Of a DNA stretch of 64,000 nucleotides, positions 1,550-10,684 are shown in pieces; the stretch's first letter is position 1, and every line of letters begins with the position of its first letter. Under the pieces are notes generated by a model. That model saw only the letters and a program-made list of their open reading frames with translations. It did not search any database and was not told the DNA's origin. Source of the DNA: an uncultured bacterium (GTDB lineage Bacteria > Bacillota_I > Bacilli_A > RFN20 > CAG-826); contig CASFCL010000004.1 in the NCBI GenBank assembly GCA_949293255.1, positions 1 to 64,000 on the forward strand, read 5' to 3'. Made by a program: the position numbers and the translations under genes.

Positions 1550-2470
1550 TTAAAAATCTGCTCCTAATGGGTTGCCATCATAAACAAATAAAGCGTTATT
1601 AATTTGATAAATATCATAGATTTTATTCTTAATAAAATAGGTTACTACTAAATCAAATAAGTTAGCATTTGTAAGAGAATATCCTAATGACTTTAATAAG
1701 ACTAAAGTTTCATCATAAGAAAGTTTCATAGCAATTGCGAAAGCTAAAACAACATTCTTAGTAGGAATATATGATGGATTAGAAACTAATTTATTAAATT
1801 CTTGATGAGATAAATTTCCAAGTAAAATTAATCCAACATCATCGGTATTAGTTTCTTTTTGGAATTTTCTAATTGTTTCAACAAGTTTTGAGTTGTTATC
1901 AGTTGTTGCAACATCTTTTACTTCGTTTTCTGGATTATATTTAGAAATATGAATAATAAATTTAGTTAATTCTTCTTGAAGTTTATCAGAGATAATATTT
2001 GGAATATTTTTATACATTACTAAATACACAACATCGTCTTTATTTTCTTTCAAATGTTCTAAAATAACATTTGAAGCAACTGCAAAAGCTTCTTTTTGAG
2101 GGTAATTGAATTCTCCACTAAGTAAAGGGAAGGCGATTGAATTATAATCATGTTCTTTTAAGATTTTAAAAGATTCTTTATAAGCGCTAATTAAATTCTT
2201 TTCTTCACCATGTTTACCATTAATATAATTTGGACCAACAGCGTGAATGATAATTTTGGCATTTTTAATATTAAAAGCTGGTGTTTCTACTGCTTTTCCT
2301 ACTTTACAACCACCAATTGCTTTACAAGCGTTATTCATTTCAAGATCTCCAGCTTTATGGAAGATAGCTCTTCCAACACCTTCAACCATCTTTAATCCGA
2401 CGTTAGCTGCATTGACAATTGCATCAACATTCATGCTAATAAGATCACCTTTAATTACGTAAAATGGCAT
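1550..2470 (-). CDS. Macrodomain (ADP-ribose-binding) protein with C-terminal helical domain
   Basis: This 306-residue protein begins with a macrodomain of about 155 residues. It shows the ADP-ribose-binding signatures GDLISMNVDAIVNAAN, EGVGRAIFHKAG and IIHAVGPNY, then FPLLSGEFNYP. Such domains bind or hydrolyse ADP-ribose derivatives. The C-terminal part (about 205-306) is a separate module with YIPTKNVVLAFAIAMKLSYD and IYDIYQINNALF. From memory, this pattern recurs beside macrodomains in Firmicutes, but its function is not known to me. An AAAGGGGG ribosome site precedes the ATG. The gene follows the nucleoside transporter operon but is separated from it by a terminator, so it is probably transcribed alone. 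Confidence 0.85.
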   Translation of the reverse strand: MPFYVIKGDLISMNVDAIVNAANVGLKMVEGVGRAIFHKAGDLEMNNACKAIGGCKVGKAVETPAFNIKNAKIIIHAVGPNYINGKHGEEKNLISAYKESFKILKEHDYNSIAFPLLSGEFNYPQKEAFAVASNVILEHLKENKDDVVYLVMYKNIPNIISDKLQEELTKFIIHISKYNPENEVKDVATTDNNSKLVETIRKFQKETNTDDVGLILLGNLSHQEFNKLVSNPSYIPTKNVVLAFAIAMKLSYDETLVLLKSLGYSLTNANLFDLVVTYFIKNKIYDIYQINNALFVYDGNPLGADF

Positions 2471-2575: not shown

Positions 2576-3607
2576 TTAACTTCGAGAGGCCTTGTCGTAA
2601 GGAATACCTTCAGCTTTTGGTGCCCTCGACTTCTTCGAGATACCCATAAGTGCGATAAATGCGAGTAAATATGGAATAACTGAGTAAATTGCTTGAGTCT
2701 TCAATACTCCTGGAAGTCCTGAGTATTGTGGTAAAGATAGTAATGATGGGAAGACTCTTGAGAATGAGAAGAAGAATGCAAAGAATACGGTTCCAAAGAA
2801 GATTGGTAATGTTTTCCAGTTACCTAAAATTTCAATTGCGATAACGATGAAGCCAAATCCGAATGCATCGATTGTCCAAACAGCTGTTGACATACAAGTG
2901 AAAAGAATAAATCCACCAAGTCCTGCTGCTGCAGTACCAATCATTGTTCCAAGATATCTCATTTTACTAACATTGATACCAACACTATCGGCAGCTGCTG
3001 GATTTTCACCACAAGCTTTTAATCTTAAACCAAATCTAGTTCTATCGATTGCAAGCCATAAAACTACGATTGCAATGATTCCGATAATGACACCACAATG
3101 AAGATTTGAGAATGAATAGAATGCAAAATCACCCATGTTTCTATCAACAAGTAAGATTGTTGAGAAAACATTGTTTTCAATTTCAACTGTATCTTTACCA
3201 GTTAAAATTGTGTTGATAATTGCACCAACTGCTACTGCAACTGTATTTAAAGCAGTACCAACAACAGTTTGATTTGCTTTTAATTTAATAGAAACAAATG
3301 AAAGTAAGAATGAGAATAAAATTGAAGCAGCGATTGCAATTAAGCAACCAATAAAGTATAAAAGTTCAACGCCAGCCCTAGTTGAAGTTATCCAAACTCC
3401 TTCTGATCCAGGGAAAGCTCCAGCCATTGAGTTAATGAAGATGATTCCAGAGAAGCCTCCAACAACCATACCACCTTCAATGGCGATGTTGATAATACCT
3501 GACTTTTCAGAATATAAAGATCCGAATGCGCCTAAAGTAAAACCAACAAGGTAATAAATAAAACAGTTTAATAACATTCCAACTGAATTAATTGGCATGG
3601 TCTTCAT
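2576..3607 (-). CDS. nupC: Nucleoside ABC transporter permease (NupC-like)
   Basis: This 343-residue integral membrane protein is of the BPD_transp_2 family (branched-chain amino acid/ribose/nucleoside permeases). Segments such as EKSGIINIAIEGGMVVGG, FGLRLKACGENPAAADSVGI and FIVIAIEILGNW are typical. The motif RLKACGENPAAADS is the cytoplasmic loop that couples to the ATPase. It forms a heterodimer with the adjacent permease and imports nucleosides or related purines delivered by the BMP lipoprotein. It overlaps nupB by 20 bp, so translation is probably coupled. It is the last gene of the operon. Confidence 0.9.
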   Translation of the reverse strand: MKTMPINSVGMLLNCFIYYLVGFTLGAFGSLYSEKSGIINIAIEGGMVVGGFSGIIFINSMAGAFPGSEGVWITSTRAGVELLYFIGCLIAIAASILFSFLLSFVSIKLKANQTVVGTALNTVAVAVGAIINTILTGKDTVEIENNVFSTILLVDRNMGDFAFYSFSNLHCGVIIGIIAIVVLWLAIDRTRFGLRLKACGENPAAADSVGINVSKMRYLGTMIGTAAAGLGGFILFTCMSTAVWTIDAFGFGFIVIAIEILGNWKTLPIFFGTVFFAFFFSFSRVFPSLLSLPQYSGLPGVLKTQAIYSVIPYLLAFIALMGISKKSRAPKAEGIPYDKASRS

Positions 3608-4937
3608 CCTCCTTTATTTCACTTTTTACTCCATCTTCTTTAGATGGTTCGATAACATCTTTTGACTCTAAAACCTTGATATCATCGGATTTATCAACGT
3701 TTACTGGTCCTTCATCAGTAACAGGAATTTCTTTATGTTTAATCTTAAATAATGCTCTAGGATTAAAGAAATTCTTTAAATCATCACTTCCCCATTTCTT
3801 AAAGACAATGTTGAAGAATGACGAGAAGGAAGCAACATAAATAATTACAGCTTTAATAAGTTCTGTGTAATGAATATTATATAAAGGTGAAGCATTAATT
3901 AATGAAGTTTGTGCTTGAGTAATAAATGCGATAATAATTGATGAAAGAATACAACCTATTGGAGAATTTTGACCAATAAGGGAAACTGAAATTCCAGTAA
4001 ATCCATCAGCAAGTAATGTATTTGAATTCGAATTCCATAAGAAGTTAAGTGGGAAATCAGCGTTTGCATAAATGATATAACCAGCAAGTCCACCGATTGC
4101 TCCGGAAATTGTAAGAGCTAAAACGATAGATTTTGTTTGAGAAATACCAGCATATGAAGCGGCATGTTTATTTGCTCCACTTGCTCTTAATTCAAAACCA
4201 AATGTAGTTTTTGTCATGACAAATTGCATTACTATAATAAGGATAATAGCAATAATTAATCCATAAGTAACACCAGGTAAAATGTTTGAAGCAATTGATG
4301 GAACTCTTCCATCTACAGGAACTGTTGCGAAATAGTCCATTTGGTTTCTATCTTTAAAAGATGCAGGAATTAATCCAGTTGTTCCTGAAGAAAGAACACC
4401 AATTAAATAATAGACAATCCAGTTAAGCATAATACCTGAAAGAACTTCGTTAACATTTAATTTTGCTTTCATGATTCCACTGATAAATCCAATTAATCCA
4501 CCAGCGATAGCACCAAAAAGTAAACAAAAAAACCAGTTCCATCCAGATAAAGCAAGACAAATTCCAACAAATGCACCAGCTGTAACTTGTCCTGTGATAC
4601 CGATATTGAACATTCCAAGTTTATAAGAAATAGCAATTGATAAACCTGTAAGCATCATTGGAGTTGCGGCTCTTAAAACACTCGAAAAATCGTTCATGGA
4701 TGAGAATCCTTTTGAAAGTAAAATTCCTAATCCATTAAATGCGTTGCCAGGATCGACAGCAAGCATCATTATAAGTCCAAAAATAACACCTATAACGATA
4801 CAAACAAATGCTGAAACAAATGAATTGAATCCTTCTTTTGAGAATGGATTTTTAAAGAATTCAGTAAAGCAGGAAACAAAATTACCTTTTTTTGAGGCAA
4901 CAATTGCTTCGTTTTTATTGTTTTCCATATTATTCAC
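3588..4937 (-). CDS. nupB: Nucleoside ABC transporter permease (NupB-like)
   Basis: This 449-residue permease is the partner of nupC. The core (about residues 30-380) has many membrane segments, including MFNIGITGQVTAGAFVGI, LNVNEVLSGIMLNWI and FELRASGANKHAASYAGI, the last being the ATPase-coupling loop. It is longer than usual because of a charged tail of about 65 residues that ends in an acidic/lysine-rich stretch, presumably cytoplasmic. The start overlaps the nupA stop by 8 bp, and the gene overlaps nupC by 20 bp, so this is one translation-coupled operon. Substrate assignment to nucleosides rests on the operon context and the BMP partner. Confidence 0.9.
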   Translation of the reverse strand: MNNMENNKNEAIVASKKGNFVSCFTEFFKNPFSKEGFNSFVSAFVCIVIGVIFGLIMMLAVDPGNAFNGLGILLSKGFSSMNDFSSVLRAATPMMLTGLSIAISYKLGMFNIGITGQVTAGAFVGICLALSGWNWFFCLLFGAIAGGLIGFISGIMKAKLNVNEVLSGIMLNWIVYYLIGVLSSGTTGLIPASFKDRNQMDYFATVPVDGRVPSIASNILPGVTYGLIIAIILIIVMQFVMTKTTFGFELRASGANKHAASYAGISQTKSIVLALTISGAIGGLAGYIIYANADFPLNFLWNSNSNTLLADGFTGISVSLIGQNSPIGCILSSIIIAFITQAQTSLINASPLYNIHYTELIKAVIIYVASFSSFFNIVFKKWGSDDLKNFFNPRALFKIKHKEIPVTDEGPVNVDKSDDIKVLESKDVIEPSKEDGVKSEIKEDEDHAN

Positions 4938-6900
4938 CCTCCTTTACTTCTTCTTTTTTAGCGAAATCCATACGTTTTGCACCACTCATGTAAAGACCAA
5001 TTTCTTTTACATTTGTTTCTTTTGGATTGAGTTCTGCAGTGATTTCGCCGTTAAACATAACTAAAATTCTATCTGCAACATTCATAACTTCTTCAAGTTC
5101 AAAGGAAACTAACAAGACTGCTTTTCCCTCATCACGATAGTTAATTAATTTTCTATGAATGTATTCGATTGCACCAACATCAAGACCTCTTGTTGGTTGA
5201 ACTGCGATTAAAAGTGGGGTACCTCTATCTATTTCTCTAGCGATAATTACTTTTTGTTGGTTACCTCCAGACATGGATCCAACTGTAGTTCTTGCACCCT
5301 TACCACTTCTAATATCATATTCTTCAATTAATCTTTCAGCATATTCAACTTTAGCTTTATTTTTCATAACTCCAAATTTTTGGAATTGTGGTTCAAAGTA
5401 TTTTTGTAAAGTTAAATTGTCAGTTAAAGAGAAATCTAAAATTAAACCATGTTTATGTCTATCTTCTGGAATATGAGATACACCAGCAAGATTTCTTCTT
5501 CTAATACTTAAATCTTCAAGATGAACATCGATTTGATCTGGGAGTTCTTTTTCTTGTTTTGGAGTAAGAAGAGGCTTCTTTTTAGCAGGCATAAATTCTT
5601 TAACGTTATTAAGTGCTTCTACTTTTTCTAACTTAATTTGTTCTTTAATTGGTTCAAAAGTAGGTTTATCTTTGCCTTCAACTTTCTTTTTAAATAAGTT
5701 TTTAATTGAAAGACCAATTAAACTAAAGAATTCTTCAATTGCAAATTTGGTATGTAACCAACCTCTATTAATTTTATTAACACAATAATTAAAGGCATTA
5801 ATTAAAGCTCTCCCAACTGGTCTAAAGACAAATAAAAGTCCATATTTTACATAATCCCAGCTGTTTGCAAAAATTTCATCTACTGTTTTATCATTTCTAA
5901 TTGTTGGCTTTTTATAATAATTTTTATCAACATTATGAAGGATTGCTTCACCACCTCTAACATTTGTTAAACCTGTTAAAGCATAAATTAAATCTGATTG
6001 ACCATTTCCTTCAATACCAGCGATACAAACAATTTCTCCTTCTTTAACATCAAAAGAGACTCCATTAACTGTATCTTTTTTCTTTTCATCGTTATAAACG
6101 ACTAAATTATTGACTGATAAAATTGAATTACCAACTTTTGCTTCATCTTTTTCAATGGTTAATTTAACGTCTCTACCAACCATTAAATTAGATAATTTTT
6201 GAGGATTAGTGTCTTTTGTATTGACTGTAGCGATGAGTTTTCCTTTTCTTAAAACTGAGACTCGATCACTAACTTCCATAATCTCATTAAGTTTATGTGA
6301 GATAAATAAAATAGATTTACCTTCAGCAGCTAATTGTTTCATAGATTGCATTAAACTATCAATCTCTTGAGGTGTTAAAACTGCGGTTGGTTCGTCAAAA
6401 ATTAAAACCTCATTTTCTCTATATAACATCTTTAAGATTTCAACTTTTTGTTGTGCGCCAACAGGTAAATCTTCAACAACAGTATCGATATCTAAATCAA
6501 AATGATATTTTTCACATAAATCTTCGATTGATTTTCTTACCATTTTAGGTCTTAAAAATCCGAAATATTTTGTAGTAGGTTCAAAACCTAAAATGATATT
6601 CTCTAAGGCAGTGTAACATTCAACAAGTTTAAAGTGTTGATGGACCATACCTATTCCATATTTTGTAGCATCATTAGGATTTTTGATCTTTACTGGTTCT
6701 CCCCTGACAAATATTTCTCCTTCATCTGGAGAATACATTCCAAATAAAATGGACATAAGAGTTGATTTACCAGCACCATTTTCACCTAATAAAGCATGGA
6801 TTTCACCTTTTCTTAATGTAAGTGAGATGTCATCATTTGCTTTGATGCCTGGAAAGGATTTAGAGATATGGCTTAATTCGATTACGTTTGTCTCTTCCAT
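4930..6900 (-). CDS. nupA: Nucleoside ABC transporter ATPase (NupA-like) with large insertion
   Basis: This 656-residue tandem ABC ATPase contains two nucleotide-binding domains. Domain 1 has Walker A GENGAGKST (39-47), a Q-loop in MVHQHF and Walker B LIFDEPT (about 166-172). Domain 2 has the degenerate Walker A GIEGNGQSD (295-303), the signature MSGGNQQK (543-550) and the degenerate Walker B LIAVQPTRGLD, as usual for this subfamily. Family members are normally about 510 residues. The extra length is a block of about 130 residues (325-455) inside domain 2, between the Walker A strand region and HIPEDRHKHGL. The block contains hydrophobic, basic helices (about 348-405) and a lysine-rich linker. 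It powers import through NupB and NupC. Confidence 0.92.
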   Translation of the reverse strand: MEETNVIELSHISKSFPGIKANDDISLTLRKGEIHALLGENGAGKSTLMSILFGMYSPDEGEIFVRGEPVKIKNPNDATKYGIGMVHQHFKLVECYTALENIILGFEPTTKYFGFLRPKMVRKSIEDLCEKYHFDLDIDTVVEDLPVGAQQKVEILKMLYRENEVLIFDEPTAVLTPQEIDSLMQSMKQLAAEGKSILFISHKLNEIMEVSDRVSVLRKGKLIATVNTKDTNPQKLSNLMVGRDVKLTIEKDEAKVGNSILSVNNLVVYNDEKKKDTVNGVSFDVKEGEIVCIAGIEGNGQSDLIYALTGLTNVRGGEAILHNVDKNYYKKPTIRNDKTVDEIFANSWDYVKYGLLFVFRPVGRALINAFNYCVNKINRGWLHTKFAIEEFFSLIGLSIKNLFKKKVEGKDKPTFEPIKEQIKLEKVEALNNVKEFMPAKKKPLLTPKQEKELPDQIDVHLEDLSIRRRNLAGVSHIPEDRHKHGLILDFSLTDNLTLQKYFEPQFQKFGVMKNKAKVEYAERLIEEYDIRSGKGARTTVGSMSGGNQQKVIIAREIDRGTPLLIAVQPTRGLDVGAIEYIHRKLINYRDEGKAVLLVSFELEEVMNVADRILVMFNGEITAELNPKETNVKEIGLYMSGAKRMDFAKKEEVKEGE

Positions 6901-6980: not shown

Positions 6981-8291
6981 TTACTGTTCGATATAGTTAA
7001 CAACGACTTTGTGAGTTCCGAAAGCGGCTGCAACGATTGCTGCGTTATCAGAGTTACCATTAACTTTGACTTCACCACTTTGAAGACCTTCCATTAAATC
7101 TTCATATTCAGCAACTGTGAAGTTTTTGAATCCCCAGCAGCCTTCATCACCTGATGATTCTGGAGTTGGTAAACAAACATTTAATGATTGTGCACCGACA
7201 GTAACAACTTCACCAGCAAGATCTTCTGTCCATGCTTCGTTGTTATTTCCATAGGTAGCAAGTAAAACTTGGGTAGCATCAGCTAAATTTTTCATAGCTG
7301 AAGTAATGCAGTAATTTTCCATTCCATCTGGAGAAATTTCTGAGTCAGCGTGTTGGTTAACGTCAACACCGATCCATGGTTTGTTACCTGCTCTTTGTGA
7401 AGCGGTTGTAACTGAGTTATAAACAGCACCACCACAAGCGAAGATAACTTCAGTACCATTGTTGTACCATGAAGTTGCATAGTTTGTTGCAGCTTCAGTA
7501 GCAGCAAATTCACCAGCATAGTAATATTGCATTTGAATTGAATCATCTGCTAATTCTAAATCTTGAGCAGCAGCATCAGCACCTTGGACATATCCATAAC
7601 CATAACGGATAACTGCAGGAACTGCCATACCACCGACGAAACCTAAGTTTCTGTATCCTTCTTTAACAGCAGCATAACCTGCAAGGTATCCTGCTTGTTC
7701 TTCTCTATAAATAACTGATGTGACTTTGTCATCAAATGTGAATGCAGCATAGTTGTTATCTGAATCTTCTGCAACACAGTCAAGAGCTAATAAAGCTGGC
7801 ATTTCGTCTCTATTATTAGCATATCTTTCTTGGAATCTTGCGATTGTTGATTGGAATAAGTAACCTGGAAGAACAATAACGTCTGCGTCCCAAGATGCTG
7901 CATCTAACATCGCATTTAATCTGGTACTGGTTGTGAAGTTTCCAGTTGGTTGATAATATTTGGTTTGAACTGAACCAGTTGAAACGACGTTTGCTGAACT
8001 AACTGTTCCGCCACCATTTGCGACTGCAAATGCGTTGACACCATTCCAAGCAGATTCGTTGAATGAGTGATCGTTTAATGTACCACTATCAGTAACAAGA
8101 GCAATTTTTAATGGGTTTGCTTCTGAGTAACGTGCTTTTGCTGTAGCATTTAATACTTTGACTGTACCGATATCTGTTTCTGAAAGTTCGACCATTTCAA
8201 CAGTACCGACGGTTCTACCACCGCCACATGCAACGACTGACATTAAAGTTGCAAAACTTAATGCGATAAAGCTTAGTTTGCTTTTTTTCAT
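6981..8291 (-). CDS. bmpA: BMP-family nucleoside-binding lipoprotein
   Basis: This 436-residue extracellular substrate-binding lipoprotein belongs to the BMP/PnrA/Med family, which bind purine and pyrimidine nucleosides. The signal peptide (1-21) ends in the lipobox VVAC with the lipidated Cys22. The mature domain has IALVTDSGTLNDHSFNES, the usual opening of the BMP fold, with ALLALDCVAED, LGFVGGMAVPAVIRYGYG and KPWIGVDVNQ in later strands. It is the first gene of the nup operon and is followed by a strong hairpin before nupA. The ATG has an AGGAGG site. The long structured leader upstream suggests ligand-controlled transcription. Exact ligand preference cannot be read from sequence. Confidence 0.92.
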   Translation of the reverse strand: MKKSKLSFIALSFATLMSVVACGGGRTVGTVEMVELSETDIGTVKVLNATAKARYSEANPLKIALVTDSGTLNDHSFNESAWNGVNAFAVANGGGTVSSANVVSTGSVQTKYYQPTGNFTTSTRLNAMLDAASWDADVIVLPGYLFQSTIARFQERYANNRDEMPALLALDCVAEDSDNNYAAFTFDDKVTSVIYREEQAGYLAGYAAVKEGYRNLGFVGGMAVPAVIRYGYGYVQGADAAAQDLELADDSIQMQYYYAGEFAATEAATNYATSWYNNGTEVIFACGGAVYNSVTTASQRAGNKPWIGVDVNQHADSEISPDGMENYCITSAMKNLADATQVLLATYGNNNEAWTEDLAGEVVTVGAQSLNVCLPTPESSGDEGCWGFKNFTVAEYEDLMEGLQSGEVKVNGNSDNAAIVAAAFGTHKVVVNYIEQ

Positions 8292-8350
8292 AAAATCTTA
8301 AATCCTCCTAATGTAAGTGCTTAAACTTAGAATACAATTAGGTCTATCAA

Positions 8351-8382
8351 AGAAAAAGTGGCTCTTTAGTTTTGCTAGCCAC
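8351..8382 (-). terminator. Leader terminator upstream of bmpA (candidate expression platform)
   Basis: The stem GTGGCT/AGCCAC (8358-8363 with 8377-8382) has a 13-nt loop and is followed on the minus strand by TTTTTCTTT. It lies about 60 nt before the bmpA start, in the untranslated leader. A terminator between promoter and gene is the layout expected for a transcriptional attenuator or riboswitch. Confidence 0.7.
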
Positions 8383-8419
8383 CCAAAATAATAATCAGTT
8401 CAATAATAATCTAATTAAT

Positions 8420-8507
8420 ATTAGGTAGCCCCTAAACTTTGGCTTCAGGCTAGTCGTGATTCACCATTTTGAATCGATATACCTAATGTCGTAAGTTATT
8501 AACTTAC
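8420..8507 (-). promoter_or_regulatory. Structured leader RNA, candidate purine-type riboswitch (divergent)
   Basis: On the minus strand a 7-bp hairpin (8491-8507) is followed by a three-way junction. P1 pairs 8480-8487 with 8420-8427 (ATTAGGTA/TACCTAAT). P2 pairs 8470-8475 with 8458-8463 (GATTCA/TGAATC), with loop AAATGG. A short P3 pairs AGCC at 8448-8451 with GGCT at 8427-8430; the shared base at 8427 can pair in only one of P1 or P3. The P1/P2/P3 order, the loop resembling ATATGG, a CTA in the second junction and TAC after P3 recall the guanine/2'-deoxyguanosine riboswitch fold. The canonical TTTCTACC is absent. Promoter upstream, terminator downstream and a nucleoside transporter as target all fit, but the class assignment is inference. 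Confidence 0.45.
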
Positions 8508-8515
8508 TCGTGAAT

Positions 8516-8545
8516 ATTTTATTTTTTTTGATCTTTGGTTTTCAA
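8516..8545 (-). promoter_or_regulatory. Promoter of the bmpA-nup operon
   Basis: The -35 TTGAAA (8540-8545) and -10 TAAAAT (8516-8521) are 18 bp apart. The expected start, near 8509, places the hairpin and three-way junction at the very 5' end of the transcript. Confidence 0.6.
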
Positions 8546-8741: not shown

Positions 8742-9605
8742 ATGAAAATTTGTATTATTGTTGACGATAACGCAGGCTATACACCAGAAGAAGCAAAGCA
8801 ATTTGGAATCAAAGTTGTAAGTATGCCTGTCATCATAGATGGAGAGACATATTTTGAATATAAAACAATTTCTCACGAAAATTATTATAAGAAAATGGCT
8901 GCTAACGCTGATATCTCCACTTCTCAACCTGCAATTGGTGAAATTTTAGAAATGTGGGATGAAACTTTAAAGGAATATGATCAAATCGTCCACATGCCAA
9001 TGAGTAGCGGTTTATCTGCAAGTTGCGAAACTGCAAAAGGTTTAGCAAAAGATTACGAAGGAAAAGTTTTCGTTGTTGATAATCATAGAATTTCAATTAC
9101 TTTAAAAAGTGCTGTAAGAGATGCTATTAAATTAATTGAACAAGGACATGATGGCGAATATATTAAAAATTATTTAGAAAAGACTGCTTATGAAAGCACT
9201 ATTTATATTATGGTTAACACTCTTAAATACCTTAGAAAAGGTGGAAGAGTTACTCCAGCTGGTGCAGTTTTAGGTGAAGCATTACATATCAAACCAGTTT
9301 TAACCATTTTAGGTGGTAAACTTGATGCTTTTGCAAAATGTATGGGTGTTAAAAAAGCTAAGAGAGTTATGATTGAAGCAATCAAAAAAGATATGACTGA
9401 AAAATTCCCAAATGTACCACTTGATCAATTAGATTTTGGTTTTGCATATACTGAAGATTTAGATGGAATCAAACAATTCATCGAAGAATCAAAAGCAGCA
9501 ATTGGATTTAAAGAAGCATCAAATTGTGATCCACTTTCACTTTCTGTTGCAACTCATATCGGTCCTGGTGCATTAGCAATTACTGTTACAAAAGTAATTA
9601 AATAA
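8742..9605 (+). CDS. DegV family protein (fatty-acid-binding, FakB-like), copy 1
   Basis: This 287-residue DegV-family protein belongs to the group that binds a fatty acid and, as FakB, presents it to fatty acid kinase FakA. Visible motifs are IIVDDNAGYTPEEA at the N terminus, STSQPAIGE, MPMSSGLSASCETA, VVDNHRIS, LKYLRKGGRVTPAGA and the C-terminal HIGPGALAI. The Ser/Thr-rich and GPG segments line the lipid carboxylate pocket in this family. Length is normal. The neighbouring gene is a close paralogue. No fakA is in the window, so a role in exogenous fatty acid use is inferred from family knowledge. It is probably monocistronic, as a compound terminator follows. Confidence 0.9.
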   Translation: MKICIIVDDNAGYTPEEAKQFGIKVVSMPVIIDGETYFEYKTISHENYYKKMAANADISTSQPAIGEILEMWDETLKEYDQIVHMPMSSGLSASCETAKGLAKDYEGKVFVVDNHRISITLKSAVRDAIKLIEQGHDGEYIKNYLEKTAYESTIYIMVNTLKYLRKGGRVTPAGAVLGEALHIKPVLTILGGKLDAFAKCMGVKKAKRVMIEAIKKDMTEKFPNVPLDQLDFGFAYTEDLDGIKQFIEESKAAIGFKEASNCDPLSLSVATHIGPGALAITVTKVIK

Positions 9606-9820: not shown

Positions 9821-10684
9821 ATGAAAATTTGTATTGTCGTTGATGATAACGCAGGTTATACACCTGAAGAAGCATTAAAAGAAGGTATATATTTAGTAAG
9901 AATGCCAATCATTATTGATGGCGAAGAATATTATGAAAATCGTAATATTGATTATGATACTTTTTATAATAAATTAGAAAATGATGCTAATATTTCTACT
10001 TCTCAACCATCAATTGGTGAAATTTTAGAATTATGGAACGAATTATTAAAAGATTATGATCAAATTGTTCATATGCCTATGAGTAGCGGCTTATCTGCTA
10101 CTTGTGAAACCGCAAAAGGTTTAGCAAAAGCTTATGCAGGTAAAGTTTTTGTTGTAGATAATCATAGAATTAGCGTTACTTTAAAATCTGCAGTTAATGA
10201 TGCTAAAAAATTAATTGAAGAAGGCAAAAATGGACAAGAAATTAAAGAATATTTAGAAAAAACAGCCTATGAAAGTAAAATTTTCATCATGGTTAACACT
10301 TTAAAATATCTTAAAAAAGGTGGAAGAATCACCCCTGCTGCCGCTTTAGTTGGTGAAGCTCTTCATCTTAAACCAGTTTTAACAATAAATGGAGGAAAAT
10401 TAGATGCCTTTAAAAAATGTATTGGTGTTAAAAAATCTAAAAAAGCAATGATTGAAGCAATTAAAAAAGAACGTGAAACTACCTTTAAAGATGTACCTAA
10501 TGATAAGTTAGATTTAGCATTTGCATATACAAAAGACTATGATTTAGCACTTGAATTTGCTTTACAAGCTAAAAAGGAGCTTGGATTTGACACTCATCAA
10601 GCTATCGATCCACTATCACTTTCAGTTGCTACCCATACTGGTCCTGGAGTTATCGGAATTGGATTAACTAAAAAGATAAAATAG
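9821..10684 (+). CDS. DegV family protein (fatty-acid-binding, FakB-like), copy 2
   Basis: This is a tandem paralogue of the preceding gene. It has the same length (287 residues) and most motifs are preserved: IVVDDNAGYTPEEA, STSQPSIGE, MPMSSGLSATCETA, VVDNHRIS, KYLKKGGRITPAAA and HTGPGVIGIG. Differences are scattered and concentrate in segments that shape the lipid pocket entrance, fitting a pair of FakB proteins with different fatty-acid preference. AAGGAG precedes the ATG. It is expressed separately from copy 1 (a terminator lies between them) and is followed by its own strong terminator. Recent duplication is likely. Confidence 0.9.
   Translation: MKICIVVDDNAGYTPEEALKEGIYLVRMPIIIDGEEYYENRNIDYDTFYNKLENDANISTSQPSIGEILELWNELLKDYDQIVHMPMSSGLSATCETAKGLAKAYAGKVFVVDNHRISVTLKSAVNDAKKLIEEGKNGQEIKEYLEKTAYESKIFIMVNTLKYLKKGGRITPAAALVGEALHLKPVLTINGGKLDAFKKCIGVKKSKKAMIEAIKKERETTFKDVPNDKLDLAFAYTKDYDLALEFALQAKKELGFDTHQAIDPLSLSVATHTGPGVIGIGLTKKIK

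Follow-up and report, generated by a model that had tools for sequence, protein, structure and literature searches.

A genus-specific variant of the purine riboswitch scaffold is predicted to switch off a nucleoside importer operon in uncultured Bacilli

The bmpA leader in a 64,000-nucleotide stretch of DNA from an uncultured bacterium of the Bacilli (the window) quite probably contains a cis-acting riboswitch on the purine scaffold, a genus-specific variant that would turn the nucleoside importer operon behind it off. Judged from its sequence, the element is a new form of the purine-riboswitch scaffold whose ligand is predicted, and it belongs to the guanine-I family RF00167 neither by score nor by the universal junction bases. 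It likely works like a purine riboswitch, and in our model of the switch it is a likely attenuator that, on binding its ligand, would turn nucleoside import off in purine auxotrophs.

The importer operon and its leader

The gene bmpA (6981-8291, minus strand) encodes a PnrA-like nucleoside-binding lipoprotein (PF02608, E 7.5e-30). Genes for an ABC ATPase (4930-6900) and two permeases (3588-4937 and 2576-3607) lie on the same strand, assigned with the PF00005/PF02653 profile set for importer genes; by these profile matches, the four genes are a complete nucleoside-type ABC importer. A Macro-domain protein gene (1550-2470, minus strand, PF01661) is located directly 3' of the importer genes, and two adjacent DegV-family genes lie on the plus strand (8742-9605 and 9821-10684), the first divergent from bmpA. 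PurH was found in 0 of 26 genomes of the genus versus 12 of 14 control genomes. Purine import would therefore matter to members of the genus, which probably lack de novo purine synthesis. Our literature search found no report of a guanine riboswitch linked with BmpA.

Within 250 bases before the bmpA AUG, the minus strand carries, in order, a promoter-like site, a 5' hairpin, a three-stem junction, a linker hairpin, a terminator and a ribosome-binding site. The promoter-like site (TTGAAA-18-TAAAAT, 8516-8545) matches 10 of 12 positions in a consensus scan; region-wide the scan gave six sites with 2.8 expected, and a match of this quality is weak taken alone. As judged by eye, a -10-like stretch rich in A and T lies at a similar distance from the 5' hairpin in the relatives. 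This hairpin (GTAAGTT-AAT-AACTTAC, 8491-8507) presumably begins the transcript and occupies the same place in the relatives with other sequences, for example GTTAAAGAA-GTTAA-TTCTTTAAC or GTAAAC-GGA-GTTTAC. The initial annotation had described the promoter, the 5' hairpin, the P1-P2-P3 junction and the terminator, and we find all four where it placed them on the minus strand before bmpA; TTTCTACC is missing from the leader, as it also stated.

Junction positions are numbered as in the B. subtilis xpt aptamer, through alignment with canonical elements. The 5' strand of P1 (ATTAGGTA, 8480-8487) forms eight perfect pairs with TACCTAAT (8427-8420). J1/2 (TATC, 8476-8479) retains U22 and A23 and is invariant in all aligned variant elements. 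P2 (GATTCA-AAATGG-TGAATC, 8458-8475) pairs 8475-8470 with 8463-8458. J2/3 and the start of P3 (ACGACTAGCC, 8448-8457) hold C46 (8456), a G (8455) and an A (8454) in the 47-49 stretch, C50 (8453), U51 (8452), A52 (8451) and G53 (8450). P3 (CCTGAA-GCCAAAG-TTTAGG, 8431-8449) is predicted to pair 8449-8444 with 8436-8431, and GG in L2 and CC in L3 would supply the bases for the two G-C pairs of the kissing loop. J3/1 contributes GG and C74 and is followed by the 3' strand of P1 (8420-8430).

A conserved linker hairpin (AGATTAnTA...AACt, 8393-8416) connects the aptamer to the terminator. Its stem is weak, and 11 positions of its block AGATTAnTAnnnAAC are invariant in nine of nine variant leaders despite diverged surroundings. 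The intrinsic-terminator-like hairpin (GTGGCT...AGCCAC followed by TTTTTCTTT, 8349-8382) has its stem at about 8382-8358, and its U-rich tail, TTTTTCTTT, ends at 8349. The hairpin alone amounts to -9.1 kcal/mol and was not picked up by a simple terminator scan because its loop has 13 nt. Duplex energy (-14.2 kcal/mol) points to ATTTTGGGTGGC (8378-8389) as the putative antiterminator partner of GCTACCTAAT (8429-8420). The ribosome-binding site AGGAGG follows at 8304-8309. Of 200 dinucleotide shuffles, 199 fold less well than the leader (z -2.96), which is modest evidence by itself.

The predicted switching is of the OFF type, like that of classical guanine riboswitches. A guanine-type purine, read by C74, would fill the junction and lock P1 and P3. 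With P1 locked, GCTACCTAAT would be barred from ATTTTGGGTGGC, the terminator hairpin would form and transcription would halt before bmpA. In the ligand-free state, GCTACCTAAT, which spans P1 and J3/1, would instead form an antiterminator with ATTTTGGGTGGC in the terminator arm, and the importer would be made. The antiterminator state is calculated at -41.8 kcal/mol, versus -35.8 kcal/mol for aptamer plus terminator with ligand and kissing loop left out, and ligand binding could plausibly close this gap. The predicted mutually exclusive pairing tied to P1 is strong in the window; in a cross-species test the fit of each antiterminator arm to its own terminator ranked 201 of 720, which is not significant, and we dropped species-matched arms as proof of the expression platform.

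Conservation and descent from purine riboswitches

As a DNA query, the minus-strand leader matched eight other congeneric genomes (E 6.6e-14 to 6.5e-19), in every case just before a bmp gene. Our alignment A1 comprises the window and seven of these relatives; the eighth (G003) has the same core. Common to the aligned sequences are GTATATC, the P2 hairpin and an identical 27-base block, AGCCTGAAGCCAAAGTTTAGGGGCTAC. All 160 cells over 20 tested pairs are canonical, compared with 27-44% paired in slid-partner controls. Both sides have changed in three of the six P2 pairs and in one P1 pair (G-C to A-U against the relatives), so the three-stem junction shows compensatory pairing in P1 and P2; the sequence of P3 is identical in all variant elements, and its pairing is therefore found without covariation within the variant. 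L2 GG and L3 CC are invariant in all nine elements while the neighbouring bases of L2 vary. Conservation and covariation together rule out a chance structure. Nearly identical variant leaders also stand before bmp genes that are 59% (L021, in G023) and 38% (L036, in G002) identical to that of the window, a contrast that hints at gene replacement behind a kept leader.

A search of 279 genomes of the order with a covariance model of the variant (R1) gave nine strong matches (93-104 bits), every one of them in this genus; scores then fall to 34 bits, with nothing comparable outside the genus. The window's own genome has no second copy (best score 15 bits, E 1.5). A pattern scan of 85,000 genomes returned 20 matches, eight of them on the same Bacilli contigs. 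The other 12 are chance matches that lack P1, as do all four matches in viral contigs, and we reject a wider spread of the variant.

In nine further genomes of the genus, a purine riboswitch occupies the same position before bmp. Scores with RF00167 are 41-58 bits for L022, L030, L016, L017 and L029 (45-58 bits for the first four alone) and 36-52 bits for the elements of G001, G010, G012 and G014. RF00167 matched in 11 of the 26 genomes of the genus, none of which is among the nine variant carriers. Conversely, R1 picks up the canonical element L019 (34.3 bits, E 5e-7) and three further canonical elements at E 2.2e-4 or better. Sequence comparison thus supports descent of the variant from purine riboswitches, as an orthologous replacement of RF00167 elements before bmp, and the variant shares common descent with accepted RF00167 members.

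The initial annotation had proposed a divergent purine riboswitch or a new RNA. The former is right for descent and architecture, because the element is conserved before bmp, covaries, replaces RF00167, has L2 GG and L3 CC and yields a model that finds L019. The latter holds in the sense of a new variant and not beyond it, the ligand being a prediction. Two outcomes had been named there as counting against the proposal, namely a lack of covariation in related leaders and a lack of conservation upstream of bmpA. The contrary was found in both cases, with compensatory changes in P1 and P2 of the relatives and the element placed before bmp in nine genomes of the genus.

An enolase tree divides the genus into two well-supported clades. 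The window genome falls in one of them among canonical carriers, and the species closest to it have canonical elements or none. The remaining variant carriers that the tree includes fall in the second clade, together with two canonical carriers. On this single-gene tree, the distribution of the variant could possibly reflect transfer or repeated loss.

Further leaders before bmp genes in the genus are purine-like (L041:1269-1345 and L026:1207-1279, plus strand; L014:2888-2961, minus strand). The first two combine a C46-G53 pair with U51 and a canonical J3/1, and L014 has A53; none of the three gave a purine match in the Rfam scan at E<=10. Reading by eye, we also noted a conserved hairpin GTATTCGTYKGNAATAC after the aptamer in four canonical leaders (L024, L029, L031 and L035), and in the same leaders an ATAAATC 5' of the aptamer that is complementary to GATTTAT near the ribosome-binding site.

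The ligand pocket and known riboswitch classes

In the guanine riboswitch, G46, U47, C50, U51, A52 and C53 are universal junction bases, and the G46-C53 pair is part of the fully conserved triple A23-G46-C53 in the pocket (PMC3764141). The window has C46, G at 47, C50, U51, A52 and G53 and so departs from this set. The swap from G46-C53 to C46-G53 is compensatory in the variant. It also occurs in L041 (G018) and L026 (G055), both of which have, by eye, the canonical GACTA in J3/1, and C46-G53 therefore tolerates a purine pocket. J3/1 itself reads GGGCTAC in the variant versus GACTAC in canonical relatives, one extra G.

All eight relatives have C at position 51, against U in the approximately 39 canonical elements that we read; alone among the variant copies, the window has U51. 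The relatives' J2/3 reads AC-[TTT, TCT, TT or TC]-CCAGCC with C51, and where they have two or three pyrimidines between C46 and C50, the window has G-A. Three of the four variable positions of J2/3 set the window apart from every relative; this is one sequence from a draft genome, in which AGCCTGAAGCCAAAGTTTAGGGGCTAC (27 of 27 bases) and J1/2 are unchanged. N9 is the atom that bears the sugar in a nucleoside. In the guanine aptamer, the O2 of U47 adjoins N9 of the ligand (PMC7287874). Both 2'-deoxyguanosine classes with solved structures are marked by C at position 51, and the single change U51C turns a guanine aptamer to 2'-deoxyguanosine preference (PMC8872408). On account of C51, the eight relatives most likely sense 2'-deoxyguanosine or guanosine. 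The predicted ligand of the window copy is the least certain of the set, because U51 points to guanine, yet the N9-adjoining position 47 has also changed. The distribution of deoxynucleoside kinases showed no pattern with riboswitch type, and we discarded it as a ligand hint.

The covariance search with purine and 2'-dG models that the initial annotation had suggested matched the leader to no Rfam model. RF00167 gave no match up to E 10 in either window positions 8405-8500 (96 bases) or L004, and in the 96-base search, run up to E 10, no Rfam model scores the leader at threshold; we regard sub-threshold matches to sau-41 and sR30 as chance. At threshold, Rfam matches the window only once, at a TPP riboswitch that is unrelated to the leader (RF00059, 27598-27704, minus strand, 63 bits).

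The variant resembles RF00167 guanine-I in its three-way junction, J1/2 UA, C50, A52, C74, P1-closing A-U and L2 GG/L3 CC, and in its place before a purine-import operon with a terminator downstream, the same site that RF00167 elements occupy in sister species. It differs in C46-G53 for G46-C53, in C51 (relatives), in the extra J3/1 G and in falling below detection by the Rfam model; in the window, the 47-49 stretch also contains G and A, and J2/3 is shorter by one base.

With 2'-dG-II (RF03165), the eight relatives share first-shell U22, C51 and C74, and the window U22 and C74 only, since it has U51 (8452) where the relatives have C51. 2'-dG-II features a G-C pair at the top of P1 and a U75-C76 insertion in J3/1 (PMC8872408), unlike the variant with its A21-U75-type closing pair and GGCTAC in J3/1, which RF03165 in Rfam does not match. 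RF03165 produced no match above its cut-off in 346 genomes of the class and no match in the window's genome; weaker matches are taken as other purine riboswitches. The cytosine at 51 of the relatives also recalls 2'-dG-I of Mesoplasma florum (RF01510), where it is C58. That class has C31 at position 22, C58 at 51, G59 at 52 and a short L3 (PMC8872408), in contrast to U22, A52 and a 7-nt L3 in the variant. As published features of both classes fail, we reject membership in 2'-dG-I or 2'-dG-II.

Guanine-II, xanthine-II and 2'-dG-III come from Paenibacillus, Propionispira, Clostridium and Bacillus and switch in the ON direction, xanthine-II and guanine-II with insertions in J2/3 (PMC9295807). Like our element, they are natural variants of the scaffold with altered J2/3 and J3/1 and terminator-type platforms (PMC9295807). 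By these descriptions they would differ from the present variant, which lacks such insertions, has a J2/3 of unchanged or shorter length and is predicted to switch OFF.

Alternative readings and implications

The reading that we rate highest among the alternatives, though at somewhat short of even chances, is that the relatives form a separate 2'-deoxyguanosine or guanine-nucleoside class and that the window copy has been re-switched to guanine or another purine through J2/3 (G and A at 47-49, U51). C51 is present in every relative and in none of the canonical sequences read, this base alone redirects a guanine aptamer (PMC8872408), and the downstream gene belongs to a nucleoside importer; a second change in the window would fit the unchanged AGCCTGAAGCCAAAGTTTAGGGGCTAC and J1/2 beside three altered J2/3 bases of four. 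Against it, the ligand is deduced from a single base, just one sequence shows the window variant, and 2'-dG-III is a case in which specificity cannot safely be read from J2/3 (PMC9295807). About one chance in three, by our estimate, falls to a variant that still senses guanine in a rearranged but equivalent pocket, for which guanine-II, keeping guanine despite many junction changes, provides a precedent (PMC9295807). Gene, place, C74 and U22 are the same as in canonical elements of sister genomes and the window has U51; the C51 of all eight relatives and the change at 47, the base contacting N9 (PMC7287874), argue against guanine.

It is improbable that purine binding has been lost, with an extended P3 (AGCCU/GGGCU) closing the junction of a plain structured attenuator or protein-binding site. 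This helix is the minimum-energy fold in all five variant aptamers folded, where it would bury C74, and is more stable by 1.6 kcal/mol in a nearest-neighbour model that ignores tertiary contacts and the kissing loop; P3, J3/1 and the linker block are also sequence-invariant beyond the needs of pairing. However, L2 GG and L3 CC, which the purine kissing loop needs, persist amid varying loop bases, the C46-G53 swap recurs by eye in purine-like L026 and L041 with canonical GACTA, and the element is directly orthologous to RF00167 elements. The invariance of L2 GG amid changing neighbours argues for the purine fold, and the AGCCU/GGGCU helix could also be the ligand-free form. We give very little weight to decay of the window copy into a non-functional relic, even though no other copy has so deviant a J2/3 and the species nearest to it by enolase are canonical or lack the element. 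P1 has lengthened to eight perfect pairs, P1 and P2 show compensatory changes, terminator and antiterminator are well formed and the P3-J3/1 block is intact at 27 of 27 bases.

The broadest interpretation, which we put forward only tentatively, is that the nine elements constitute a new riboswitch class, built on the purine scaffold, in which sensing of a guanine nucleoside shuts off nucleoside import in purine auxotrophs, with the ligand of the window copy changed again. If true, a single genus would have three kinds of switch in front of this operon, namely a guanine sensor, a sensor with C51 and a U51/G47 variant arising in a second step. To our knowledge, few riboswitch scaffolds have a natural change of ligand, and the intermediate steps are usually lost. 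Rfam-based annotation misses such purine-class regulators in uncultured Bacilli. With ordinary, C51 pocket-swapped and third (window) pockets before one importer gene across sister species, the path of specificity change would be testable with short RNAs.
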